A DNA stretch of 64,000 bases, taken from Planctomycetia bacterium (GTDB lineage: Bacteria; Planctomycetota; Phycisphaerae; Phycisphaerales; SM1A02). Numbering within the stretch: the first letter of the stretch is position 1; each line of letters starts with the position of its first letter. Location of the stretch: the NCBI GenBank assembly GCA_005790605.1, contig SXUI01000063.1, forward strand, positions 1 to 64,000, in the 5' to 3' direction. The notes under the pieces are model-generated. The model did no database searches. It worked only from the letters and a program-made list of their open reading frames with translations, and was not told the origin of the DNA. A program made the translations under genes and the position numbers. Positions 16,031 to 45,743 of this stretch are shown here, in pieces.

Positions 16031-16194
16031 GGCAAGACTTTCGCGCAGGGGCTCCACGAGGACACCCACTAGGTTGCACATCGGAGAGAAGACAACCCCG
16101 CTTGAGTCCATTTCGCACGATCTTGAGCATCTGTGATCCCCTACAATCTCCCCTTCGCCACGGACCGCAAACCCTCAGCCCAGAGACCCCACGA

Positions 16195-17565
16195 ATGCCC
16201 CCATCGACCTCCCCCCACGCTGCAGTTGTTGGACTCCAATGGGGGGACGAGGGGAAGGGAAAAATCGTCGACCTCTTGACAGCGCGGTACGACTGCATCG
16301 TGCGCTACAACGGCGGCGCAAACGCCGGACACACCGTGCAGGTTGGGAGCGAACGCTACGCGTTGCATCTGATCCCAAGCGGCATTCTGAGCCGCGGAAA
16401 GACGAATGTCGTCGGAAACGGCGTCGTCGTCGATCCTGAAAAAATCTTGGAGGAGATCGAGGGACTCCGCAAGCGAGGCGTGGATGTCGGAAGCAACCTC
16501 CGAATCTCCGACCGCGCGCATGTCGTGATGCCCTACCACAAGGATCAGGACGCAGCTCTTGAGGACCTTCTCGCCAAGCGCGCGGGAACTCTCGGGAATG
16601 GCGGATCGATTGGTACAACGCGACGGGGCATCGGTCCGGCCTACGCGGACAAGATTCGCCGCTCAACTGCGATTCGCGTTGGCGACTTGCTCGATCGCGA
16701 CCTTCTCGAACGCAAACTCGACACGATTTGCAGCATGCGCATGGCCGAACTTCAAGCGCTCGGCGCGACGATCGGAACTGGCGACGGAGAAGTCCGTCCG
16801 CTCATTCCCGCTGAACTCGCGACGCGATTTGCGGCCGCAGGCGAACGACTTCGACCGCACATCACCGACACCGTGTACCTGCTGCATGATGCCATGCGCG
16901 AAGGCCGCAGCGTGCTGTTTGAGGGCGCGAACGCCTGCCTCCTCGATATTGACCACGGCACCTTCCCGTTCGTGACGAGTTCGAACTGTTCAACGCTCGG
17001 GATCCCAGCGGGTTCCGGTGTTCCGGGCCGTGCGATTAGCAAGGTGTACGGCATCATGAAGGCGTACTCGACGCGCGTGGGAGGCGGTCCGTTCATCACC
17101 GAATTGCTTGACGCGACCGGCGATCGAATCCGCACTCGCGGCCGTGAATATGGCACGACCACCGGACGAGCACGTCGTTGCGGCTGGCTCGATCTCGTCG
17201 CGGTGCGCTACTCGACGATGGTCTGCGGTGCCGACGCCATTGCCTGCACGCTGCTCGATGTGTTGAGTGGATTTGATGAGTTGAAGGTTTGCGTCGGATA
17301 TCGCCGCGCCGATGGCACAATCACCGATCGATTCTTACCCGATGCGGAGCGGATGGCCGAATTCACGCCCGTCTATGAAACGATGCCGGGTTGGAGCCGC
17401 GAACTCACGGATTGCCACGATCGCGCGGATCTTCCCACCGAGGCACAAGCCTATCTTGCATTCATCGAGCAGTTCACGGGCACTCCGATTGAACTGGTTT
17501 CGGTCGGGCCAGAGCGTACACAGACGCTTGAATCCACTCGCGCATCACTTGTCGGCGCGCGCTAA
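16195..17565 (+). CDS. purA: Adenylosuccinate synthetase
   Basis: 456 residues. Condenses IMP with aspartate using GTP, the first step from IMP to AMP. Signature segments are VVGLQWGDEGKGKIVDLL (P-loop-like), RYNGGANAGHTV, GSIGTTRRGIGPAYADK and LFEGANACLLDIDHGTFPFV, with GREYGTTTGRARRCGWLDLV near the C-terminus. The length is slightly longer than E. coli PurA (432). The start at 16195 gives a short polar leader before the conserved core. uppS follows 12 bases after the stop and is probably co-transcribed. Confidence 0.97.
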   Translation: MPPSTSPHAAVVGLQWGDEGKGKIVDLLTARYDCIVRYNGGANAGHTVQVGSERYALHLIPSGILSRGKTNVVGNGVVVDPEKILEEIEGLRKRGVDVGSNLRISDRAHVVMPYHKDQDAALEDLLAKRAGTLGNGGSIGTTRRGIGPAYADKIRRSTAIRVGDLLDRDLLERKLDTICSMRMAELQALGATIGTGDGEVRPLIPAELATRFAAAGERLRPHITDTVYLLHDAMREGRSVLFEGANACLLDIDHGTFPFVTSSNCSTLGIPAGSGVPGRAISKVYGIMKAYSTRVGGGPFITELLDATGDRIRTRGREYGTTTGRARRCGWLDLVAVRYSTMVCGADAIACTLLDVLSGFDELKVCVGYRRADGTITDRFLPDAERMAEFTPVYETMPGWSRELTDCHDRADLPTEAQAYLAFIEQFTGTPIELVSVGPERTQTLESTRASLVGAR

Positions 17566-17577
17566 CGATTTGCACCG

Positions 17578-18393
17578 ATGCCTCATCGAACGACGAGCCT
17601 CTCCTCCGTCCCTGCGCCGCTTGATGATCTTGAGCGAAAGCAACTCCCGCGGCACATCGCCGCGATCATGGATGGGAACGGTCGATGGGCAACCTCCCGC
17701 GGCATGCCTCGGCTTGTCGGTCACCGGGAAGGCGCGGCCACGGTTCGCAAGATCGTGACCGAGTGCGTTCGCCTTCGACTTGAAGCGCTGACGCTCTATT
17801 CATTTTCAAGCGAGAACTGGAAACGCCCCAAGGAAGAGGTTGCCGGTCTGATGGAACTCTGCGCGGAGTTTCTTGTGCTCGAGCGGCCCGTCATGCTCGA
17901 ACAAGACATCCGATTTCGAAGAGTCGGATCTCGCGTTGGTCTCCCACCTCGCGTGCTCGACGAACTCGATGCGACGGAGGAAGCAACGGCACACGCGAAG
18001 GGGCTCACGCTCTGCTTGGCGATGAACTACGGTTCTCGGACAGAGATTACGGATGCCGCGAAGGAGATCGCGTCTCAGGTGGAACAGGGCAAGCTGCGCG
18101 CCGAAGATGTGACCGAGCAGACCATTGCTGCGCATCTCTACACCGCGGGGATTCCTGACCCCGATCTACTCATTCGTACGGCGGGTTCCTTCCGCGTTTC
18201 AAACTTCCTTCTGTGGCAGATCAGTTACGCAGAGATCCATGTCACCGATGTCTACTGGCCTGACTTTGCTCCAAGCGACCTCCATGCTGCGATTCGCGAC
18301 TTCACACGCCGCGAACGCAAATTCGGAGAACTTGGAGCGAGTGTGGTTGACGCAAAGCACGCGAGTGCGCACCGCAATGCGAATGCACGATGA
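17578..18393 (+). CDS. uppS: Isoprenyl (undecaprenyl diphosphate) synthase
   Basis: 271 residues. The cis-prenyltransferase makes the lipid carrier for wall and surface glycans. The substrate-binding motif is HIAAIMDGNGRWATSRG, followed by GHREGAATVR and LTLYSFSSENWKRP. The C-terminal block reads PDLLIRTAGSFRVSNFLLWQ then ISYAEIHVTDVYWPDF. In most family members the last block is RT(S/G)GExRxSNF; here Glu is replaced by Ser, while both Arg, the Ser and the Mg-binding Glu of SYAE are kept. The gene sits directly after purA. The 240 bases after it (18394-18633) hold no gene and should contain the metalloprotease promoter. Confidence 0.95.
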   Translation: MPHRTTSLSSVPAPLDDLERKQLPRHIAAIMDGNGRWATSRGMPRLVGHREGAATVRKIVTECVRLRLEALTLYSFSSENWKRPKEEVAGLMELCAEFLVLERPVMLEQDIRFRRVGSRVGLPPRVLDELDATEEATAHAKGLTLCLAMNYGSRTEITDAAKEIASQVEQGKLRAEDVTEQTIAAHLYTAGIPDPDLLIRTAGSFRVSNFLLWQISYAEIHVTDVYWPDFAPSDLHAAIRDFTRRERKFGELGASVVDAKHASAHRNANAR

Positions 18394-18633: not shown

Positions 18634-21435
18634 ATGCCCTTCCGCCGCTCTCTCCCACTCTCCGTGATCACCCCGATCTTCGTGCGGCGCTACGCACGCG
18701 CGATTGCACTGAGCACCTCCACCGCGCTCACCATCGTGCTCTCCGTCGCGGGGTCCAACGCGGTGCAAGCGGATGACCCGAAGCACATTGATCATGTCAC
18801 TGAAAAAGAACTCACCGCATTCACCCGCGCCGCGGTTCGCAATGGAGGAATCGCCGAACTCAGCGTCGATGAGTTTCGTGAGCTCGCGATCGGCGATGCC
18901 GTCGTCTTTCCATTCGCGGATGGCGTCGAAGTCGGGATGACGCTTGTGGAAAAGCGTTGGCTTACCGATGGCCGAATCTACGAATGGCAATTCCGCGAAG
19001 AGAGCGAACTCGCATCCGCTGCGATCGTGATGACGAACGGGGAACTCTCTGGCGAAGCGCATCGTGCAGATCTGGGAGTTCGATATCACGCGCTTGGCCG
19101 CGACAGCCAAACAATGGAGCCATTCGCCGATACAGGCGACTGCGGCGGCGCATTTGATGTTCCGTTTGACAATGAAGGGAACGCCAAGCCGCACGATCCA
19201 ACCCTCGACGAACATGCGTTGAGTACTGACGATGCGCAGCCCGCCGATGGCGGCATCGCAGGAGGATGCACCGATGGAGCAGGACTCGTCGACATCGCGG
19301 TTTTCTACAACACGGATGTCATTACCGCAGCAGGAAGTGTCGAAGCCGCTGAGGCCGCGATCGCGTCGGCCGTGGCAAACCTCAACACGGCGCTTTCCAA
19401 CTCACGTTGCATCACTCGTATGCGCATGGTCGCGCTCGAAAGCACGAACCGATCGAGTTTCGCGAGCCTCTTCAGCGATCTCGATTGGTTGAACTCTGAC
19501 GCTGGGATGGCCACGCGACGGAATGAGCTTGGCGCGGACATGATGCACATCGTTTCGACGGGAACTGGCGCGTGCGGCGTCGCATCACTTTTCAACAACA
19601 GCCCGAACTCCGCGTTCGGCGCGACCAACTTTGGATGCCTTGGCGGATACACGCTCGCGCACGAAGTTGGTCACAACTTCGGTTGCTGTCACGCGCCAGG
19701 CGACGGAGGTGGTTGCGGAACTGGCGGCTACTACCCCTACTCGGTTGGATACCGATTCAATGGGGCAAGTGGCACACAGTGGCGTACCGTCATGGCGTAT
19801 GACCCCGGCGTGCGCATCTCGCACTTTTCAAATCCGTATGTGAACTATGACGGCACGCCTACCGGAGTGTTAGGAAATGCTCCAGGCGTCGGCGCCAACA
19901 ACGCACGGACGATCAATCTCACTGCTGCAACGATCGCGCAATTCCGGTGCTCCGGAGGAATCCAGACGGACTGCAATGCAAACGGCATTGATGATCAATA
20001 CGAACTCGACACGGGAGCAGCCCCGGACTGCAATAGCAACGGCATTCCCGATGCATGTGACATCGCAAGCGGACTCTCACTTGATGTGAACGCCAACGGC
20101 GTGCCTGATGAGTGCCCACTCACGAGCCCCGTCGTTGGTTCACTCGATCCTGACATTCTCGACACGCTCGGCTGGAGCGTCTCGATGGATGTGCGCAGCG
20201 CGGACCCGTTCCCCTACATGATCGCGGGCGAACCGCATGACGATGGCGTCGAAGGATCGCTCGATGCAGCCGGCGCTGCGATCTTGTACGCACGAGTCGG
20301 CACCACATGGGGTGGTCTCGGGGTGCTTCGAGCAAACGACCCGCGACAGTACGCGATGTTTGGAAGCAGCGTGGGCGTGTTTAAGCGCCAAGGCGCCGGC
20401 AGTGTGCCGAGTGCGAATCTCGCCGTTGTCGGCGCGTATCGTGCGCAAGCGACCTCGGGAGCCAATTGGGTGAATGAGGGCGCCGCGTACACATTCGAAG
20501 AAACCGGAGGCGGATGGGTGCAGAAGCATCGCGTTGTGCCGCAGGCGATCACGCCGGACACGACCAAGACGAATGCATTTTTCGGTTTCTCCGTCGCGAT
20601 GTCACGCGTTGGTACAGATGCGGGCGATCAGGTGTTCGTCGGCGCACCAGGCTCAAATCTTGGTAAGGGATCGATGTATGTCTTCCGACAGAACGACTCG
20701 GGAACGATCGTGCAGAGTGGGAATCTGCGCGGTTCGACGACAACGATGCTTGGTGACGAAGTCGGTTGGAGCGTGGCCGTCGATCCAGTTTGCCCTGCCA
20801 TCGGATCCACGCCAACGCGCGCGTTCGTCGCATTCGGTGCCCCAGGCACCTCGAGTGATCGCGGAGCTGTGTGGACCTACTACCGCGCCACAACCGGCGC
20901 AACTGGATTCGGCGGTCCACGCAAGATCGCCATCGGCTCCGCGCAAGCTGTCATCGGTGACCGATTCGGCGAAGCTGTAGACATCCATGACAACTGGTTG
21001 CTCGTCGGAGCGCCTGGATCAGACGGCGGCAAGGGCGCGGCGTGGCTTGTGGAACGCACCGCAGCGAACACCTGGACGATTCGAAACAAGATTTCGCGGC
21101 CAGAGTTGCAGGCTGGTGACGCATTCGGTTCGAGCGTCTCCATCACGGCGGCACCAAGCGGTACCGACCTCGTCATTTGCATCGGTGCGCCGGGCCGCGA
21201 CAAGACCGTCGATGGCGTTCTGCGACAAAACGCGGGAAGCGTATTCACCTTCCGCAAGCTGACGACATCGCTCATCCCCGTGTTCTCCACCGAGCACACC
21301 GCGATCGCGCCGAAGTCTGGCGATCAGTTCGGGTTCTCCATCGGATCCATCAGCGGTCTCACTGGCGTCGGGATTCCGTTTAGCAACGATGCCGGTCTTG
21401 ATGCTGGCGCCGTCCGCATTCTCTCGACTCCCTAA
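18634..21435 (+). CDS. Secreted reprolysin-like zinc metalloprotease with FG-GAP propeller
   Basis: 933 residues. A long signal region (about residues 20-47) ends near SNAVQA. The metzincin zinc motif is HEVGHNFGCCHA near residue 342, and a Met-turn candidate VMAYDP lies further on, with Cys residues around it. Residues about 446-494 are calcium-loop repeats (DCNANGIDD, DCNSNGIPDAC, DVNANGVPDEC). The C-terminal half has about six FG-GAP-like blades, each with (F/W)G.SV and VGAPGSN..KGS..VF patterns, as in integrin alpha propellers. Likely an exported, calcium-dependent protease or adhesin. The cysteine-rich repeat gene begins 2 bases after the stop, so they are one operon and may act on each other. 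Confidence 0.85.
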   Translation: MPFRRSLPLSVITPIFVRRYARAIALSTSTALTIVLSVAGSNAVQADDPKHIDHVTEKELTAFTRAAVRNGGIAELSVDEFRELAIGDAVVFPFADGVEVGMTLVEKRWLTDGRIYEWQFREESELASAAIVMTNGELSGEAHRADLGVRYHALGRDSQTMEPFADTGDCGGAFDVPFDNEGNAKPHDPTLDEHALSTDDAQPADGGIAGGCTDGAGLVDIAVFYNTDVITAAGSVEAAEAAIASAVANLNTALSNSRCITRMRMVALESTNRSSFASLFSDLDWLNSDAGMATRRNELGADMMHIVSTGTGACGVASLFNNSPNSAFGATNFGCLGGYTLAHEVGHNFGCCHAPGDGGGCGTGGYYPYSVGYRFNGASGTQWRTVMAYDPGVRISHFSNPYVNYDGTPTGVLGNAPGVGANNARTINLTAATIAQFRCSGGIQTDCNANGIDDQYELDTGAAPDCNSNGIPDACDIASGLSLDVNANGVPDECPLTSPVVGSLDPDILDTLGWSVSMDVRSADPFPYMIAGEPHDDGVEGSLDAAGAAILYARVGTTWGGLGVLRANDPRQYAMFGSSVGVFKRQGAGSVPSANLAVVGAYRAQATSGANWVNEGAAYTFEETGGGWVQKHRVVPQAITPDTTKTNAFFGFSVAMSRVGTDAGDQVFVGAPGSNLGKGSMYVFRQNDSGTIVQSGNLRGSTTTMLGDEVGWSVAVDPVCPAIGSTPTRAFVAFGAPGTSSDRGAVWTYYRATTGATGFGGPRKIAIGSAQAVIGDRFGEAVDIHDNWLLVGAPGSDGGKGAAWLVERTAANTWTIRNKISRPELQAGDAFGSSVSITAAPSGTDLVICIGAPGRDKTVDGVLRQNAGSVFTFRKLTTSLIPVFSTEHTAIAPKSGDQFGFSIGSISGLTGVGIPFSNDAGLDAGAVRILSTP

Positions 21436-21437
21436 TC

Positions 21438-24422
21438 ATGCACATCGCGCGAATGCGCTTCTCTCGATTGATTCCTTCCATGCGACTTCTCTCTCTGTTT
21501 ACGCTCGTGCTTGCACTTCTGCCGACGCTCGCGATTTCTGCGACCGCGCGCGGCCAAGCAGTCTGCTCAAGTTCAACGCACAGTTGCTTCGAACCAAGCA
21601 TTATCGAAGCTGGATGTTCGAATCCAAACTGCTGCGCAACCGTTTGCGCGATTGAACCGATTTGCTGCGCTGTGGCCTGGGATGAGTTGTGCGTCTCCCT
21701 CGCCGCGAAGTTTTGCACGGCGTGCGGTAGTGTTCCTGAGAGTTGCTTCGTGGCACATGGCAGTGGATCGTGTCGCGATGGCGCGTGCTGCGAAGTCGTG
21801 TGTGCGATTGATCCCGGCTGTTGCAGTGTGGCCTGGGACACACATTGTGTGCGATTAGCGACAACACCGGGGACCGGTTGCGTTGGTTGTGGAGCGCCAG
21901 GTGCTGGGAGTTGCAAAATCACGCACGAAGCAGCGGGATGCAATGATTCCAATTGCTGTTCGACCGTGTGCACCGTGGATTCGCACTGCTGTGAAACCAC
22001 ATGGGATCAGATCTGCGTCGATTGGGCGAACCAACTCTGTCCAGATTGTGGGAACCCAAACGCGGGAAGCTGCTGTTACGAGCACGCTGGCCCCTACTGC
22101 AGCGACGCAACCTGCTGCGAACTCGTCTGCGCGACTGATCAGTACTGCTGCGAAGACCGGTGGGACTTCTACTGCGCGCAAGTCGCGAACAACAATTGTG
22201 GACTCACGCAGTGCACCTGCGGCGATCCAACCGCTGGCTCCTGCAAGTCTGCACATGCGAGTATCGGGTGCAATGACTTCCGTTGTTGCAACGATGTCTG
22301 CGCCGTCGACGGATTCTGCTGCGTGGTTGAGTGGGACTACACCTGCGCGCGCCAAGCAGAGACGATGTGCGCGATCTTCGTGCCCAGTTGCGCCGATGCC
22401 TACGGCAGTTGCTATGTGCGCCACAACTCCGCAGGCTGCGACGAACCTGGCTGCTGTGAGCAAGTCTGCATCATCGACAACACTTGCTGCACCTTCGAAT
22501 GGGATGCCGGATGCGCGGACCTTGCCGCAGCGCACTGCAACGGCTGTGGAGACATCGAGAGCGAAAGTTGCTTCTATCCTCACTTTGGCCCGAGTTGCTA
22601 CGACCCCGAGTGCTGCGACACCGTGTGCACCTTTGATCCTCGCTGCTGCGAATTGCAATGGGACATGTTCTGCGTGATCAACGCGTACAGCGTGTGCGAG
22701 ATCGGCAGCGCGTGCGGCTCCTTCCTCTCCCGACCGTGCGGCGTGCCGAGCCGAATCGCAGGCTGTTCCGACGCGGGCTGTTGCTCTCTCATCTGCAACT
22801 TTGACCCAACCTGCTGCTCGCGCGCATGGGATGAAACTTGCGCGGCGAATGCATCGAACTTCTGCGATCGACCACCCAATTGCCCCAATCGCGGCGACCC
22901 ATATCTCGTGCACCCAGAGCCTGGATGCGCGGACGAATTCTGCTGCACGGCTGTTTGCCAAGTCGAGCCCTACTGCTGCCAACTCGGATGGGACGCCAAC
23001 TGCGTTTATGTCGCACAAGGCATCTGCTACTCCGTTGCGGGCTGCCCCGGCAGCGGAAAGTGCGGCGTCGCGCACACGACGCCTGGCTGCGATGATCCAA
23101 CCTGTTGCAACATCGTCTGCCGGCTCGACCCAGTCTGCTGCACTGCGCGCTGGGATGTGAACTGTGTCGCGAGCGCTGGCTTGCACTGTGTGCCGCGACC
23201 GAGTTGGCCCTGCCCTTGCTTCGGCAGTTGCTTTGAAGAGCACGCCAACGCAGGGTGCGACGATGAAACCTGCTGCGCCGGCGTTTGCTCGATTGACGAT
23301 ACCTGCTGCACCGTCGCATGGGATGCGTCTTGCACGGCACTGGCGCGCATCTACTGCTGCGCGACACCAGGTTGCGGCGACAGTTGCGCTGGGAGTTGCA
23401 TTGAAGAGCACACGAAGCCGAACTGCGATGACTCCGTGTGCTGCACGGCAGTCTGCCGGTATGACCCGTATTGCTGCAGCGGAGAGTGGGACACCGGATG
23501 TGTGCGTGACGCCATCGAGACCTGCGAGGGCGGTTGCGGTCTTGTGATCTCTGGTTCGTGCTTCGCTCCACACGGATTCGCAGGATGCGCGGATGCCGCA
23601 TGCTGCACCCTGGTGTGTGATGATCCCGCCTTCATGTACTGCTGCTTCATGGACTGGGATCAGCTTTGCGCGAACGAAGCGCTTCTGCGTTGCCCGGCGA
23701 GTGTGCCGGATTGCGGCGACATCGGTGGCGGGAGTTGCTGCGAAGTGCACGCTCGGCCAAGCTGCAATGACGCGAGTTGCTGCACTGCGGTCTGTGCAGT
23801 CGACGATTACTGCTGCACGGTCGAGTGGGATCAAGCCTGTGTCGACATCTCACGCACGCAGACCGCGTGCTCCCAGTGTGATCTCGATTGCGGCGACGAG
23901 TGCGCAGGCCCTTGCTGCGAGGCGAAGGATACGCCTGCGTGTAGTGACGAAGCATGTTGCAACGCGGTGTGCCTCCTCGATGCCATTTGCTGCGAAGTTG
24001 CGTGGGACCAGTTCTGCGCTATGGAAGCGAAGATCAATCCAGCATGCAATGGTGACACCGGCGCGTGCCCGCAACCCGCTTGCGGCACGCCCGAGGCGCA
24101 GAGCTGCTGCTACCCGCACGACAATGCGAATTGCAGCGACGAGCAGTGCTGCGAGGATGTCTGCGTCATCGACGACTACTGCTGCACGATCGAGTGGGAC
24201 AACACGTGTGCTGGCATCGCTGGAGATGTCTGCGATGTCTGCGGCGGCGGTGTCGGTTGCGGAAGCCCACGCACCGGTGGCTGCTACAACGCGCACCTCA
24301 CGCCGTTCTGCTCCGACAGCGCGTGCTGCCTCTTCGTGTGCAGCGTCGACCCAACCTGCTGCTCAGACGCATGGGACGACGCTTGTGTCGATGCTGCGCT
24401 CTTCTTCTGCAACGGCGGTTGA
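21438..24422 (+). CDS. Secreted protein of 17 cysteine-rich repeats
   Basis: 994 residues. After a signal peptide (hydrophobic core LLSLFTLVLALLPTLAIS) the whole protein is 17 tandem repeats of about 50-60 residues. My consensus is SC-x4-H-x4-C-x-D-x2-CC-x2-VC-x2-D-x2-CC-x3-WD-x2-C-x3-A, usually followed by one to three more Cys before the next unit. Each unit has about ten cysteines, so the mature chain has roughly 170. Acidic residues at fixed positions suggest metal (perhaps calcium) binding with disulfides. I recall similar CC...WD..C units in predicted secreted proteins of Myxococcota and Planctomycetota, but I know no established function. It probably forms an elongated extracellular rod. 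Alternative starts are at 21453 and 21480. Confidence 0.8.
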   Translation: MHIARMRFSRLIPSMRLLSLFTLVLALLPTLAISATARGQAVCSSSTHSCFEPSIIEAGCSNPNCCATVCAIEPICCAVAWDELCVSLAAKFCTACGSVPESCFVAHGSGSCRDGACCEVVCAIDPGCCSVAWDTHCVRLATTPGTGCVGCGAPGAGSCKITHEAAGCNDSNCCSTVCTVDSHCCETTWDQICVDWANQLCPDCGNPNAGSCCYEHAGPYCSDATCCELVCATDQYCCEDRWDFYCAQVANNNCGLTQCTCGDPTAGSCKSAHASIGCNDFRCCNDVCAVDGFCCVVEWDYTCARQAETMCAIFVPSCADAYGSCYVRHNSAGCDEPGCCEQVCIIDNTCCTFEWDAGCADLAAAHCNGCGDIESESCFYPHFGPSCYDPECCDTVCTFDPRCCELQWDMFCVINAYSVCEIGSACGSFLSRPCGVPSRIAGCSDAGCCSLICNFDPTCCSRAWDETCAANASNFCDRPPNCPNRGDPYLVHPEPGCADEFCCTAVCQVEPYCCQLGWDANCVYVAQGICYSVAGCPGSGKCGVAHTTPGCDDPTCCNIVCRLDPVCCTARWDVNCVASAGLHCVPRPSWPCPCFGSCFEEHANAGCDDETCCAGVCSIDDTCCTVAWDASCTALARIYCCATPGCGDSCAGSCIEEHTKPNCDDSVCCTAVCRYDPYCCSGEWDTGCVRDAIETCEGGCGLVISGSCFAPHGFAGCADAACCTLVCDDPAFMYCCFMDWDQLCANEALLRCPASVPDCGDIGGGSCCEVHARPSCNDASCCTAVCAVDDYCCTVEWDQACVDISRTQTACSQCDLDCGDECAGPCCEAKDTPACSDEACCNAVCLLDAICCEVAWDQFCAMEAKINPACNGDTGACPQPACGTPEAQSCCYPHDNANCSDEQCCEDVCVIDDYCCTIEWDNTCAGIAGDVCDVCGGGVGCGSPRTGGCYNAHLTPFCSDSACCLFVCSVDPTCCSDAWDDACVDAALFFCNGG

Positions 24423-25836: not shown

Positions 25837-27903
25837 TCACATCGCCGCGCCGTTTTCTGTTTCGAGATAGGTGTATCCCGCCAAACCTGACTCGTAGGCG
25901 CGCACGAGCGCATTGGACTCCGCGACTGACATGTGTCGGTCACGCACCGCTCGCTCGCACTCATGCCGAATCGCCTGCGATAGGCGATTCACATCGTATT
26001 GCACATAGGAAAGCACTTCACGAACACTGTCGCCCTCGACCGTCTCATCGATCCACCAGTTACCATTTTCGTCGAGCCGGATATGTGCGACATGCGTGTC
26101 GCCGAAGAGATTGTGAAGATCGCCGAGCGTCTCTTGATATGCGCCAACGAGGAACGCTCCGAGGTAGTACTGGTCACCGTCCTCGATCGAGTGCACTTCG
26201 ACCGACTTGCGCACATCGTGATTGTCGACGAAGCGATCGATCTTGCCGTCAGAGTCGCAGGTAATGTCCGCGATCGTCGCCTTGCGCGTCGGGCGCTCGG
26301 TCAAACGATGGATGGGCATGATCGGGAACAACTGATTGATTGCCCAGATGTCAGGGAGCGACTGGAAGATAGAGAGATTGCAGAAGTAGGTGTCGCTCGT
26401 CGCGTCTTCGATGTCGCCAAGCTCTTCGGGCACCGCGGGCATCTCACGCGCCTTGTCCCGAATCTTCGCGCAAGTCGCCCAAAACAGACGCTCGACGATG
26501 GCGCGGTGCTCGAGCGAGAGGTAACCGACGCTGAAAAGGTTCATCGCCTCGTCGCGCGCCTGCAACGCATCGTGATAGCACTCAAGCAATCTTCGTTCGC
26601 TGACCGCCCCGAAGGCTTCAAAGAGGTCGACGATCGGGCGCGGTACTTCGCCATCGGTGAGTGGAACACCCTCAAGCGTCGTCGGCGCCTTGAATCGATC
26701 GACGCTGTTTGCGCCGAGCACATCAAACACCAAGACGCTCTGCTGCGCGACCATCGCGCGACCGCTCTCCGTGATGATCGTCGGATGCGAAACGCCCTCT
26801 TCGTCGCACACACTCATCACCTTGTAGACGACATTGGAGGCGTACTCAGCGAGGGTGTAGTTCGTCGAGAATTCGAAGTTTGTCTGGCTGCCGTCGTAAT
26901 CGATGCCCAATCCACCACCGACATCGAGGTACTGCATGCTGCAGCCCATCTTTGCAAGCTCGGTGTAGATGCGCGCCAGTTCGTTCACGCCGGAATTCAC
27001 TTGACGGATGTCGTGGATCTGCGACCCCATGTGGCAGTGCAGCAACTGGAGGCAGTCCTTCATACCCTTCGCGCCGAGGTACTCGACTGCTTCGATGACT
27101 TCGTTGACGCTGAGACCGAACTTTGCCTTGATGCCGGAACTGTGGCGCCATCGACCCGCGCCCTGCGTCGAGAGATTCACGCGCACGCCGATGCGTGGGC
27201 GGATCTCGAGCATTTCCGCGTACTTCACGATCAGGCGAAGTTCGGTGATGTTCTCAATCACTGGAATGATGCGTCGCCCAAGCTTCGCGGCGAGCATCGT
27301 GAATTCGATGTATCGCTCTTCCTTGAATCCATTGCAGATGATCAATCGATCTGGTGAGTCACTCGTCAACCCCATGACCGCGAGCAACTCTGGCTTCGAT
27401 CCAACTTCGATGCCGAATCCAAGCGGCATGCCGAACTCGCGCACATCGTGCACGACGCGTCGCTGCTGATTCACCTTGATCGGGTAGACCGCGTTGTAGG
27501 AACCCTTGTATCCGTTGTCCCGAATCGCAGTCGCAAATGCATCGTGCATGTCGGTCATGCGCGTGCGGAGCAGATCGCTGAAGTGCAAGAGCGCGGGGGT
27601 GCGCAAGCCGCGCTCGCGCAGACCCTGCACCACTTCGAAGAGATCAATCTCGCGACCCGTCTCGCGTGTCGGTCGCACGACAACGTGCCCCTTCGCGTTG
27701 ACGTCAAAGAAACCCTTCGCCCAACCACGCAAGTTGTAGAGATCCGCAGAGTCGTCGATCGTCCACCCTCGTTCCATCGAGGTTCGAAGTTGCCCGCCGC
27801 GGAATGATGGCTGCGCGCCTGTCGACGGCGGAGCAGCGCTTGCGATGGAAGAGGCTGTCGGAGCACTCGGCGCCCTCAGTGGGGCGGCAGACGGATTCAC
27901 CAT
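25837..27903 (-). CDS. speA: Biosynthetic arginine decarboxylase
   Basis: 688 residues, slightly longer than E. coli SpeA. The PLP enzyme converts arginine to agmatine, the entry to putrescine and spermidine. Motifs are the PLP lysine in YNAVYPIKVNQQ, FGIEVGSKPELLAVMGL, LHCHMGSQI, YLDVGGGLGIDYDG, PTIITESGRAMVAQQSVLVF, and LFPIMPIHRL near the C-terminus. The first 45 residues are a Pro/Ala/Ser-rich extension before the conserved WTIDDSADLYNLRGW. It has its own terminator and no polyamine neighbours. Confidence 0.96.
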   Translation of the reverse strand: MVNPSAAPLRAPSAPTASSIASAAPPSTGAQPSFRGGQLRTSMERGWTIDDSADLYNLRGWAKGFFDVNAKGHVVVRPTRETGREIDLFEVVQGLRERGLRTPALLHFSDLLRTRMTDMHDAFATAIRDNGYKGSYNAVYPIKVNQQRRVVHDVREFGMPLGFGIEVGSKPELLAVMGLTSDSPDRLIICNGFKEERYIEFTMLAAKLGRRIIPVIENITELRLIVKYAEMLEIRPRIGVRVNLSTQGAGRWRHSSGIKAKFGLSVNEVIEAVEYLGAKGMKDCLQLLHCHMGSQIHDIRQVNSGVNELARIYTELAKMGCSMQYLDVGGGLGIDYDGSQTNFEFSTNYTLAEYASNVVYKVMSVCDEEGVSHPTIITESGRAMVAQQSVLVFDVLGANSVDRFKAPTTLEGVPLTDGEVPRPIVDLFEAFGAVSERRLLECYHDALQARDEAMNLFSVGYLSLEHRAIVERLFWATCAKIRDKAREMPAVPEELGDIEDATSDTYFCNLSIFQSLPDIWAINQLFPIMPIHRLTERPTRKATIADITCDSDGKIDRFVDNHDVRKSVEVHSIEDGDQYYLGAFLVGAYQETLGDLHNLFGDTHVAHIRLDENGNWWIDETVEGDSVREVLSYVQYDVNRLSQAIRHECERAVRDRHMSVAESNALVRAYESGLAGYTYLETENGAAM

Positions 27904-27990
27904 TCGAGGGGTGCCTTCGCGATAATCGCGGTTCTTCCCGGACTTCTCCGGGTTCTAGGTGCGGAAAACTGGATGCCACGGACGGTACTT

Positions 27991-28004
27991 TTGGCAATTG
28001 CCAA
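27991..28004. promoter_or_regulatory. 14-base perfect palindrome, operator-like
   Basis: TTGGCAATTGCCAA sits in the 233-base space between divergent speA and the PEP-CTERM-like gene, about 88 bases before the speA start and 130 before the other start. A dimeric repressor site is the natural reading, but no partner regulator is adjacent. Confidence 0.35.
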
Positions 28005-28136
28005 GTGCAGATGATAGATCCTCCCCGTGAAATCGGAAGTGTTCTAGAGGAACTTTTTCGAATCACGCTTGGATCCCCGTCGTCCGGGGTGCATACTGAG
28101 CATGTTTCCAATCCCCTTTTTCTTGGAGAGCACAAG

Positions 28137-28856
28137 ATGACTGCAAAGATTTCAGCGCGATCGCGCGGGCTGTGTGTTCGTTCGGCAACGGTCCTTTCTC
28201 TATCCATTGCCGGCGCCGCGTTCGCAGGCCCCACCTGGGACGGCGATCTCGACTCAGACGCCGGCAACACTGCGAGCACCGCGCAGGTTGTCACTCAGAG
28301 CGGACCGGTCATGGAAATCAAGGGGCGGGTAAGTGCGACCGCGTTCATGGGCAACCCTGACTACGCGGACATGTTCCTCATCCGGATTGCAGCGCCAACG
28401 ATGCTCAAGTTCTCGACAGCGGGCGGCGACAACGGCGGTTCCGCAAACTTTGATAGCTCGCTCTTCCTCTTTAAAGCAGCCGAAGGCACCACCGGTCCCC
28501 GCGCGTTTGGCGTTCTTGGCAATGGCGATTACTCGCAATCCATGAACGGCGCGCTCATCCAATCGCAGTCCAACGACGGCTCGGGCTTCGTGCTCACGGA
28601 TCCAGGTCTCTATTACATCGCGATTTCCATGGCTGGGTTCAACCCAATGAGCGACAACTCGCTCATCTGGCCGAACGTCCCGGCTGGCGTGATCGGATTC
28701 GGAAACTTTAGCCCCCTCACAGGCTGGACCAACGAATCCAACAACCAGGGTGGCGAGTACTCCATCCGCACGGTCGGCATCGAAGGCGTTCCTGCTCCGG
28801 GAGCCATTGCGCTCTTCGCGCTCGCAGGCCTCACTCGGCGATCTCGCGCTCGCTGA
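28137..28856 (+). CDS. Exported protein with PEP-CTERM-like sorting tail
   Basis: 239 residues. The start at 28137 is set by GGAGAG seven bases upstream; the open frame before it is antisense to speA. The signal peptide ends near GAAFAGPTWDGDL. The middle is a pre-peptidase-like/beta-sandwich stretch (DMFLIRIAAPTMLKFSTAGG, GLYYIAISMAGFN). The last 22 residues read VPAPGAIALFALAGLTRRSR, a variant PEP-CTERM signal with a hydrophobic helix and Arg-rich end, recognised by exosortase. It is probably anchored or processed and then released to the extracellular matrix. No exosortase gene is in this window. Confidence 0.75.
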   Translation: MTAKISARSRGLCVRSATVLSLSIAGAAFAGPTWDGDLDSDAGNTASTAQVVTQSGPVMEIKGRVSATAFMGNPDYADMFLIRIAAPTMLKFSTAGGDNGGSANFDSSLFLFKAAEGTTGPRAFGVLGNGDYSQSMNGALIQSQSNDGSGFVLTDPGLYYIAISMAGFNPMSDNSLIWPNVPAGVIGFGNFSPLTGWTNESNNQGGEYSIRTVGIEGVPAPGAIALFALAGLTRRSRAR

Positions 28857-42247: not shown

Positions 42248-43324
42248 TCACGGATGCGCGCCACCGTCTCCCGAGGACCCATCCTTCAGCACCGGCGGCG
42301 CGTCAAAGTTGGAACGGGTTGGTGGTTTCAAATAGTTGTGGCCAGAGTTCGGATTATTCCGGTCATACGCGAAGGCTTCTCGATTTCGAATGAAATCCTT
42401 CACATAGCGCGCCGGGATCGCGAAGCCGAGCGCCTCGCCGCCTCGGATTCCCATGTTGGTTATCCCAATGACTTCGCCCTTCGTGTTGAAAAGCGGTCCA
42501 CCAGAATTGCCGGGGTTGATCGGCGTGTCCGTTTGAATGTAAGTCAGCCCGTCGAAGTTGCGCTGCGTGGTTGAGATCACGCCCTGCGTCAGCGACCGTT
42601 CGAGGCCGAGCGGGTTTCCGATGGCAAAGACGGGTTGCCCCGCTTCGAGCTTCTCGGCATCTTGCACTGGCGCGAACTCGAAGACGCCGCCGTCAGGGTG
42701 CTTCAGACGAATGAGCGCGAGATCCACCTGACTATTCACTGCGATCAACTCAACGCCATCAATGTCAGTTCGCTTGAGCGTGCCATCTGGCTGTTCAAAC
42801 CACACCGTTGCGCGGATGTTGGTCTCGCCCTGCACGACATGCGCGTTCGTCACAGCAAAGCCGTCGCCAGAGAGAATCACGCCCGAGCCGAGCCCACCTG
42901 GAGTCGAAACTTTGATGACGGCAGGTCCGATGAGCTTCGTCTGCTCACGCGGCGGCAAGTCACTCAGCCCCGTTGCGGTCGAAAAAATGTCAATTGTCTT
43001 GTTCGTTGCGCGCGCGTCTGCGGCGTCACTGAGAATGTCCGCGACATCATCCATCGAGAACTCGAGGACGCACGGTCCAACATCAATCCAAACTTTGCGG
43101 TCGGTGCGTTTGAGAATGGTCCCCTGCACCGCACCGCCAAGTCGCAGTCGAACCGTGTCACGGGCAGGACTTGCTGCCGCCTCCGCAGAAGCGGCCGGCG
43201 CAGGCTGCTCACTTTGAGCAAGCAGCGGCGAGCTCGCACTTCCAAGCAGCGAGAGCGCAAACACACCTGGTAAGGCGAACGAGTGAAGTGAAGAACGGAG
43301 CGTGGAAAACGAAGGGAGTCGCAT
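42248..43324 (-). CDS. S1C (HtrA/DegP-like) serine protease without PDZ domain
   Basis: 358 residues. A signal peptide (FALPGVFALSLLGSASS) is followed by a short SH3-like domain (RLRLGGAVQGTILKRTDRKV), then the trypsin-like protease. Triad residues are His in FAVTNAHVVQGE, Asp in SQVDLALIRLKHP and Ser in INPGNSGGPLFNTKG. The C-terminus ends without a PDZ domain. Periplasmic protein quality control or signalling is expected. An in-frame ATG lies 7 codons upstream. The gene is divergent from the FG-GAP gene at 43434. Confidence 0.92.
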   Translation of the reverse strand: MRLPSFSTLRSSLHSFALPGVFALSLLGSASSPLLAQSEQPAPAASAEAAASPARDTVRLRLGGAVQGTILKRTDRKVWIDVGPCVLEFSMDDVADILSDAADARATNKTIDIFSTATGLSDLPPREQTKLIGPAVIKVSTPGGLGSGVILSGDGFAVTNAHVVQGETNIRATVWFEQPDGTLKRTDIDGVELIAVNSQVDLALIRLKHPDGGVFEFAPVQDAEKLEAGQPVFAIGNPLGLERSLTQGVISTTQRNFDGLTYIQTDTPINPGNSGGPLFNTKGEVIGITNMGIRGGEALGFAIPARYVKDFIRNREAFAYDRNNPNSGHNYLKPPTRSNFDAPPVLKDGSSGDGGAHP

Positions 43325-43433
43325 AGGAATGCTGCCGTGGATCAATGAAACCCGCGATCACCGTTACGATACCAACTCTAGGTTTCCATACCTGCGTTCG
43401 ACCCTGCAGTTTCCTCTCCCTCGCACGATCACC

Positions 43434-45743
43434 ATGCAACTGTTTTCCACTTTCAGCGCGGTCGCCCGTCCCATTTGCGCGTTCGCGTTGCTTCAGTCGT
43501 TCGGCGCGCTCACGCTCGCGGATGATCAAGAAACCGCCTCGCATTACGGATTCGACGGACTCGATGTGCTCAAGATCGACCGGGGCGCAGGGCCGATTAC
43601 CGCGAGCGATATGAACGCGGATGGATTGACCGATCTCATCGCGGTCAACAACGCGAAGAGCCGCATCGAGTTGCATGAGCAGAAGAAAGGCGCCTCGCCA
43701 GATGACCCTATCGAGTCCGCAAGCGGCATCAATGAAGCACCTCCGCTTTGGCGCTTTCGACGGATCGAGGTGCCAGTATCGCACGAAGTGACCGCGGTCA
43801 TTCCGCACGATTTCGATAGTGATGGAATGATGGACCTCGTCTACGCAGGTCAGCCCGGAACGATCGTCTTTCTCCGACAAACAAAGCCTGGCTCATTCGA
43901 AGTTGCTCGGCGAGTTCCGGTGAAGGGACTCTCCCAAGCACGCGACGGCTTTTTGATTGCAGACCTCATCGACGATGCGAAGCCCGAGCTCGCCGCGCTC
44001 GTCAACGGCAAGCCGACGATCTGGCCACTCGAGGGCTCAAAGCTCGGCGAAGCAACGGAACTTGCGAGCGGCGATCCACTCGTCGCCTTACTCGTTGGCG
44101 ACTTCGATGGTGAAGGCTCGACAGATCTTGCAGGAGTCGCGCCCGACAACGCGGCGCCGATTCGCCTCTGGCTCGCGAGTGAAGAGAACGGCAAGCATCA
44201 GCTCGGATCGCAACGGCGATTCGAACTTCCTCCATTGCGGGAAGCGACTTCAATTTCACTTCCCGGAGCGAAAAAATCTCTGCTCGCGCTGATTGAACGC
44301 CCAAGTAAACGCATCGTGATCGAGGAAGTTGTCACAGGAGCGAATGCGGGCGGCGAAGCCTCGCTCGAAGTCTTCGGTGCAGGCGAATCCGGGAAAAAAC
44401 GCTCGTATGCGACCGCCGACCTCGATGGCGACGGGCTTCTCGATGTTCTTGCGACCGATCCGACGAGTAGCGCCGTCCTCGTGTTCCGCCAAGTCAAGGA
44501 TCGTGGCTTGCAACCATCGCGCGCGCAACCGTCGTTTGCCGAACTCACAGGCATCGACGCGGGCCCGACGAACGGTGCGACGGGAACTGAAGTGTTCGTG
44601 TTGAGCGAGAAAGAGGGCGTCGTCGGACGAAGTCACTGGGAAGATGGAGCGCTCACTTTTCCAACGGCAATGCCGCTCAGCGCCGGGAGTACGCCGCTTG
44701 TCATCGCGCTTGTGCGCCTTGAGTCAGGGCCTCGGCTCGCGGTCGTCACCAAAGACGGAAAGAACTATCAGCTCGAGTTGCTTCCGGTCGATGGCTCATC
44801 GGAAGCGAAGTCAGACGTCGTCAAACTTGGCGCGCTCGTGAAGCCACCAGAGTCGGTGATGGCGTGCGATGCGGATCAAGACGGCAAGGTCGACATCCTT
44901 CTCTTCACACAAGACAAACCCATGACAATGCTGCGCGCGACCGATGCAGGATTCGCGGCACTTGAGTCCAAAGACATGGCGCAGTTCGGACTCGTCCAAG
45001 CAGCGAACGGTTCGAATACGGCGCTCTTCGACGTGCAGGGCGATGGAAAACCTGAACTCGTTGTCGCGGACCGAAACTTCATCCGTGCGCTTCGATTCGA
45101 CTCCGCTGCGACGCCCGCAGGTTGGCAGGTCGTCACGCAAGTGAACGCCGCGCGCAGTGATGCAAAGCTCGTTTCGATTGCCGCCAACGGCGCGCAATTG
45201 ATCGCGGGTGACAAAGAGAACACGCAGCTCCTTTTCTTCGAGAAACAAAGTGACAAGTGGCTGCAATCGGATGCGCTCACCGTGAGCGGATTCAAGTTCG
45301 GACCCATTCGCGCTGGTGCGTACTCGGGCAATGCGGTGCCAGATGTCCTCTTGATCGGCGACGATGGATTTGCGGTCGCGCGGATCACTGGCAATCGCGT
45401 CACGCTCGAAGAACGCGGCAGCCGCCGTGGTGATCGGCCCAATCAACTCGACCATGAACTCGCCGCGGGTGATGTGAACAGCGACGGCTTCCTCGATCTG
45501 CTCTCACTCGATGCGGGCGAGCAAGCACTTGGAATCTTGAGTTTCTCGCAGGCGGGCGCACTCGTTCCTGGGACCAGTTTCAAGGTCTTTGAGACGCGAC
45601 TGTTTCAGGGCGGCGAGCCGCGCGAGTTTGAACCGAGCGAATGCCTCATCGCGGACTTCACGGGTGATGGCCGCGACGATGTCGCCCTTCTCGCCCACGA
45701 CCGCGTGCTGCTCTACCCGCAAGCAAGTCCGAAGACCCGCTGA
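43434..45743 (+). CDS. Exported FG-GAP/VCBS repeat protein
   Basis: 769 residues. The start at 43434 gives a signal peptide with AVARPICAFALLQSFGAL. The mature chain has repeated VCBS blades with DxDxDGxxD calcium loops: ASDMNADGLTDLIAVNNAKS, HDFDSDGMMDLVYAGQPG, ADLDGDGLLDVLATDP, CDADQDGKVDILLFTQD, DVQGDGKPELVVADRN and NSDGFLDLLSLD. The chain forms a propeller or beta solenoid, probably extracellular. No catalytic domain is seen. The stop at 45743 abuts an array of intergenic hairpins. Confidence 0.82.
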   Translation: MQLFSTFSAVARPICAFALLQSFGALTLADDQETASHYGFDGLDVLKIDRGAGPITASDMNADGLTDLIAVNNAKSRIELHEQKKGASPDDPIESASGINEAPPLWRFRRIEVPVSHEVTAVIPHDFDSDGMMDLVYAGQPGTIVFLRQTKPGSFEVARRVPVKGLSQARDGFLIADLIDDAKPELAALVNGKPTIWPLEGSKLGEATELASGDPLVALLVGDFDGEGSTDLAGVAPDNAAPIRLWLASEENGKHQLGSQRRFELPPLREATSISLPGAKKSLLALIERPSKRIVIEEVVTGANAGGEASLEVFGAGESGKKRSYATADLDGDGLLDVLATDPTSSAVLVFRQVKDRGLQPSRAQPSFAELTGIDAGPTNGATGTEVFVLSEKEGVVGRSHWEDGALTFPTAMPLSAGSTPLVIALVRLESGPRLAVVTKDGKNYQLELLPVDGSSEAKSDVVKLGALVKPPESVMACDADQDGKVDILLFTQDKPMTMLRATDAGFAALESKDMAQFGLVQAANGSNTALFDVQGDGKPELVVADRNFIRALRFDSAATPAGWQVVTQVNAARSDAKLVSIAANGAQLIAGDKENTQLLFFEKQSDKWLQSDALTVSGFKFGPIRAGAYSGNAVPDVLLIGDDGFAVARITGNRVTLEERGSRRGDRPNQLDHELAAGDVNSDGFLDLLSLDAGEQALGILSFSQAGALVPGTSFKVFETRLFQGGEPREFEPSECLIADFTGDGRDDVALLAHDRVLLYPQASPKTR

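Follow-up and report, generated by a model that had tools for sequence, protein, structure and literature searches.

What is the role of a secreted protein built entirely of cysteine-rich repeats, whose gene lies directly behind that of a secreted metalloprotease? This question is raised by a 64,000-nt stretch of DNA (hereafter the window) of a Planctomycetia bacterium with a 3.03-Mb, 99% complete genome assembly. In the ORF listing of the window, the array gene begins with an ATG exactly 2 bases past the stop codon of the M12 protease (TAATCATG), as an earlier note on this DNA had pointed out, and encodes a 994-aa product (Table 1). Charged and hydrophobic regions can be made out by eye in the N-terminus, as can a plausible cleavage site, which would fit the secretion proposed in that note, and beyond these approximately 40 signal-peptide-like residues the protein consists of units throughout. 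The number of repeats given earlier, 17 filling the mature protein, was confirmed, with one WD per unit. The repeat unit was likewise recovered, but its estimated length (50–60 residues) and the estimated total of about 170 Cys required correction: the modules are 46–64 aa long and the protein contains 181 Cys (18%). The fixed CC, VC, CC, WD and C positions are recognizable in the consensus CxxxHxxxGCxDxxCCxxVCxxDPxCCxxxWDxxCVxxAxxxCxxxxxCG, in which Cys columns 10, 15, 16, 20, 26, 27 and 35, as well as W and D, are invariant in 17/17 units of the window. The mature protein is Asp/Glu-rich (pI 4.05, net charge about −105). Neither a sorting motif nor a dockerin was seen in it, and no binding site, ligand or anchor was recognized on the array itself.

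The ORF is not a chance product, as is evident from intact orthologs found at the same place in many genomes and from its dN/dS of about 0.024 in the comparison of the window with genome G003 (dS is near saturation; the protease gave 0.051 and uppS 0.052). At the DNA level the array gene contains no tandem array (TRF detected just one 40-base element), which indicates that the module copies are ancient.

Table 1. Coordinates of the array gene, its units and associated genes (positions in the window, unless a contig is named)
Feature	Position	Strand	Basis or remarks
17-module secreted protein, 994 aa	21438..24422	+	ORF, repeat count
Signal-peptide-like N-terminus, aa 1-40, MHIARMRFSRLIPSMRLLSLFTLVLALLPTLAISATARGQ...	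21438..21557	+	sequence; cleavage site by eye
N-terminal cap AVCSSSTHSC	21558..21587	+	first Cys equivalent to inter-module CG Cys, plus C1 of module 1
Unit 1	21588..21743	+	repeat alignment
Unit 2	21744..21911	+	repeat alignment
Unit 3	21912..22070	+	repeat alignment
Unit 4	22071..22241	+	C2 and extra linker Cys
Unit 5	22242..22409	+	repeat alignment
Unit 6	22410..22568	+	modelled together with unit 7
Unit 7	22569..22736	+	modelled together with unit 6; top HMM score
Unit 8	22737..22898	+	repeat alignment
Unit 9	22899..23060	+	lacks C1; C10 without usual partner
Unit 10	23061..23228	+	linker SWPCPCFGSC; CPC-type linker recurrent among orthologs
Unit 11	23229..23396	+	repeat alignment
Unit 12	23397..23564	+	repeat alignment
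Unit 13	23565..23735	+	insertion ahead of second CC: DDPAFMYCC
Unit 14	23736..23912	+	C2 and extra linker Cys
Unit 15	23913..24104	+	C2 and extra linker Cys
Unit 16	24105..24281	+	C2 and extra linker Cys
Unit 17	24282..24419	+	protein ends just past its C43 (FFCNGG)
Secreted M12 (reprolysin-like) metalloprotease, C-terminal FG-GAP repeats	18634..21435	+	upstream of array gene
Protease zinc-binding motif region, HEVGHNFGCCH, aa 341-355	19654..19698	+	Pfam match
FG-GAP half of protease protein	20131..21432	+	Pfam; identity level kept in pseudoproteases
uppS, syntenic upstream marker	17578..18393	+	profile matches, synteny
Adenylosuccinate synthetase gene (purA-like), syntenic upstream marker	16102..17565	+	synteny
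Pseudoprotease ORFs, intact, FG-GAP retained	L157:5051-7999, L089:4067-6922, L279:293-3226, L280:3427-about 6261		

Searches of Pfam, NCBIfam and the PDB sequences with the array protein and its module revealed no family and no real HMM match, in accordance with the earlier remark that similar units occur in predicted secreted proteins of no known function, and the literature search found no paper describing it. In structure comparisons, Foldseek against the PDB gave nothing at E≤10 for a two-unit model (a small fold can escape such detection) and only a match at E=5.4 for the full-length model; matches in BFVD were weak (E≥1.4), and VIA on the two-unit model returned nothing usable. The module is thus an undescribed and unannotated type of a known general kind, the secreted cysteine-rich repeat proteins. 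These SCREPs (Maxwell et al. 2018, PMC6262176), a class in which many unreviewed bacterial sequences are reportedly found, are secreted, as the array probably is, and resemble it in carrying tandem disulfide-rich modules, the consistent disulfides of the array being indicated by the co-loss of Cys described below. However, SCREPs are a descriptive class and not a homologous family, and the characterized members are mostly short toxin-like peptides, whereas the array is 17-fold, slowly evolving and bacterial, with a module unmatched in Pfam or the PDB.

An HMM of the unit identified 39 places in the window genome, distributed over this array and about ten other proteins. The module was detected in 56 of 101 relatives, all 56 belonging to the same Phycisphaerales family as the window genome, in none of the 40 genomes from the other families of the order, and in 8 of 392 genomes spread over the phylum, all eight of them from the same family. 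When 84,980 species genomes were scanned with a DNA pattern, the matches listed came almost only from contigs labelled as Phycisphaerales or planctomycete. This distribution suggests a family-level invention; as far as searched, the module appears to be restricted to one Phycisphaerales family, and rare or divergent copies may exist elsewhere. Single units labelled as Wenzhouxiangella (on a contig of 4.7 kb, with no further unit elsewhere in that genome) and as proteobacterium look like binning contamination, and the matches labelled Limnohabitans or Kuenenia (about 30 units) look mislabelled or mixed. The sole match among 2.9 million viral contigs was found in a phage contig (L281:237-3875; IMGVR_UViG_3300025168_000086), where one module, possibly a captured host-surface module, lies inside a 1212-aa Cys-rich protein; this contig also bears an exonuclease (phrog_298) and an HNH gene (phrog_2081).

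The pairing of the cysteines was deduced from their joint loss in the HMM columns of 741 distinct modules (C49′ denotes the CG cysteine ahead of a module). With p-values that are inflated, as they treat related modules as independent, C20 and C27 showed 18 joint losses versus 2 and 2 single ones (p=7e-32) and C15 and C43 were lost together (p=2e-13); when C49 was missing from the preceding linker, C16 of the next unit was missing in 15/15 cases (p=4e-20), the absence of C10 was accompanied by that of C1 in 8/8 cases (p=9e-9), and modules with C2 had one more Cys in the linker behind them in 96/103 cases, compared with 79/332 (p=2e-38). Such co-losses are seen repeatedly, at more than one position and in more than one protein. 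C26 and C35, which hardly ever go missing, would constitute the remaining pair. The conserved disulfide pattern anticipated in the earlier note therefore takes the form of a consistent five-pair map, which gives good support to the predicted bonds C49′-C16, C1-C10, C15-C43, C20-C27 and C26-C35, together with an optional sixth bond. According to this pairing, the natural module spans the region from CG to the Cys that follows WDxxCxxxAxxx, and both the start (C49′) and the end (after C43) of the array protein are in phase with it. By hand count, 178 of the 181 Cys are assigned; those left over are C10 of unit 9, one in the 10/11 linker and one in the 14/15 linker, and if the map is correct at least one of these three must be free or intermolecular. 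The predicted five-disulfide topology is directly testable.

An AF2 model of units 6-7, for which 106 module pairs were aligned, reached a mean pLDDT of 85.9 (about 94 within the cores of the modules). It contains helices of approximately 10, 4 and 10 residues per unit, and the same helix pattern appears in nearly all modules of the full-length model (23 sequences, pLDDT 78). The module is thus predicted, with good support, to consist of three short helices that five disulfides hold together; the extended rod shape of the array is not demonstrated by the full-length model, whose pTM is just 0.53. The conserved D12, D23 and D32 lie at or just before the predicted helix starts, as helix caps would, which can be explained without invoking a metal or an active site. 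The metal crosslinking proposed earlier consequently found no support, with nearly all Cys pairing off and no recurrent free-thiol site. In spite of the 18% Cys and the many Asp and Glu residues, a metal-binding or metallothionein-like crosslinked polymer is extremely improbable: the cysteines are lost pairwise and in a fixed pairing, as disulfides would be, and the conserved His is present in only about 62% of the 741-module alignment.

Orthologs of the array contain 15–20 units, with exactly 17 in 13 of the 24 non-redundant arrays (three of the shorter ones end at contig ends). In L157, L149 and L089 (about 52% identity), the best match for 16 of the 17 units is their own positional counterpart (chance 1/17); at 43–47% identity this diagonal is weaker, yet visible in most orthologs. 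The order of the locus, purA-uppS-(protease)-array, is syntenic in many genomes. Repeat adhesins usually vary in copy number and evolve fast, and the constancy of the array is unusual among them; it is a rare example of a repeat protein with nearly frozen copy number and order. This feature bears on the possibility that the array is a multivalent substrate-binding or adhesion protein (a SCREP-like avidity binder), which would attach the cell to proteinaceous particles independently of proteases. The module-array design with its position-specific conservation, the FG-GAP partner and the strongly acidic character would suit such a binder, but the stable repeat number and slow evolution make it an unlikely explanation.

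The protease gene adjoins the array in one clade only (tree support 100/96). In these protease-fronted arrays 43–97 aa are located ahead of the first unit, whereas the other-clade arrays with complete N-termini carry an extension of about 230–720 aa, LTD-like by eye and with weak dockerin-like matches in some; outside the protease clade, uppS is often placed directly in front of the array. The zinc-binding motif HExxHxxGxxH is destroyed in L157, L089, L279 and L280 (examples are RALGANMGCCS, KLLGLNMGACF and KLIGFNMGACA), in which the protease gene is otherwise full-length. As L207, nested among these pseudoproteases, is intact, the motif must have been lost at least twice on the tree. The catalytic domains of the pseudoproteases share about 32% identity with that of the window, compared with 42–49% in active orthologs outside the window genus, and for the FG-GAP half the respective values are 31–34% and about 35%. 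The processing of the array by the neighbouring protease, as suggested earlier, is not supported, given this restricted adjacency and the loss of the zinc motif in four genomes of the clade. The co-occurrence with a protease, put forward at the same time, was confirmed in part: as adjacency it is confined to one clade, but elsewhere M12, S8 and M43 proteases are found fused to the module. The FG-GAP protein seems to replace the N-terminal extension, a reading that rests on one evolutionary event, and the two adjacent genes are probably co-transcribed. ADAM and ADAMTS proteins also combine a metzincin with disulfide-rich non-catalytic modules and include inactive protease members; the array differs from them in being bacterial and in having no sequence or fold match, its modules being neither disintegrin nor TSP1 nor ADAM Cys-rich domains. 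The array is a candidate reason why a metzincin gene is kept after the loss of catalysis.

Analysis of 70 module-bearing proteins revealed dockerins in 17, S8 domains in 7 and M12 domains in 3, in addition to M43, LTD, P-domain and a galactose-binding-like domain; one protein of the window genome combines an M12 protease, 5 units and a dockerin. Disulfide-rich tandem modules are typical of protease inhibitors, and in the S8 proteins the modules are located N-terminal of the catalytic domain. Nevertheless, a multi-headed inhibitor, each module being a head that protects the cell against its own or foreign proteases, is very improbable in view of the extremely low dN/dS and the absence of matches to known inhibitor families in Pfam, NCBIfam and the PDB.

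The main rival explanation is a structural coat or cell-wall protein, i.e. a disulfide-stabilized surface layer or matrix rod that would represent the Phycisphaerales counterpart of YTV proteins; it corresponds to the matrix idea of the earlier note once metal and processing are removed. The latter (PF07639) are Cys-rich proteins of planctomycete cell walls, reported only from Planctomycetales (PMC8567305), and share with the array the planctomycete origin, secretion and richness in Cys. Very strong purifying selection, the fixed module order, the all-module composition, the syntenic position beside uppS and the availability of one to three Cys in each chain for intermolecular bonds are all compatible with a coat. 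However, the array protein gave no Pfam match to the YTV domain up to E=1 (the window genome had no match either, though the control for that search was uninformative), and almost all Cys are predicted to be intramolecular. Moreover, the module often occurs in dockerin and protease proteins, and the 17-array is absent from some genomes of the family, more than half of those sampled having no long array match, unlike what is expected of a main coat protein. We therefore regard a coat function as rather unlikely.

The reading that we favour, tentatively and at somewhat less than even probability, is that the array serves as a rigid, fixed-length, non-enzymatic extracellular scaffold or spacer of the dockerin/protease system of this family. 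We infer that the exported chain of 17 rigid, disulfide-armoured modules of about 50 aa, fixed in order and length, would work with the secreted dockerin-bearing proteases of this one Phycisphaerales family, and that it might be a spacer, or a multivalent platform for binding, by which hydrolases and/or protein substrate are kept at the cell surface. In the clade of the window, the adjacent M12/FG-GAP protein would bind or anchor the array via its FG-GAP part, without cutting it; in the other clades the N-terminal extension of the array itself would take over this task. The module's company corresponds to the dockerin, LTD, P-domain and M12 reprolysin-like secreted proteins of the 'planctosome' hypothesis, developed for freshwater Phycisphaerae, i.e. 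the same class of organisms (Andrei et al. 2019, PMC6461901). Cysteine modules are not mentioned in that paper and the array protein, which has no dockerin, LTD or cohesin, is not a component described there. Uncultured planctomycetes of lakes and the sea have a dockerin/protease secretome whose architecture is missing, and the array protein is a concrete candidate for it. The window genome contains 69 Dockerin_1 matches and 0 Pfam cohesin matches (divergent cohesins could escape). A bolder and distinctly improbable version would be a cohesin-free scaffoldin, a new kind of docking backbone in which each individually conserved module receives a different partner (dockerin hydrolases or the FG-GAP pseudoprotease) and which organizes an extracellular proteolytic complex in organisms with dozens of dockerins and no recognizable cohesin.

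Two other ORFs of the window are worth mentioning. The one at 27804-28856 (+), next to an arginine decarboxylase gene, encodes a secreted DVUA0089-like protein that has a PEP-CTERM-like tail (VPAPGAIALFALAGLTRRSRAR) and scores just below the cut-off of NCBIfam. The other, at 43302-45743 (+), encodes an 813-aa protein with FG-GAP repeats.
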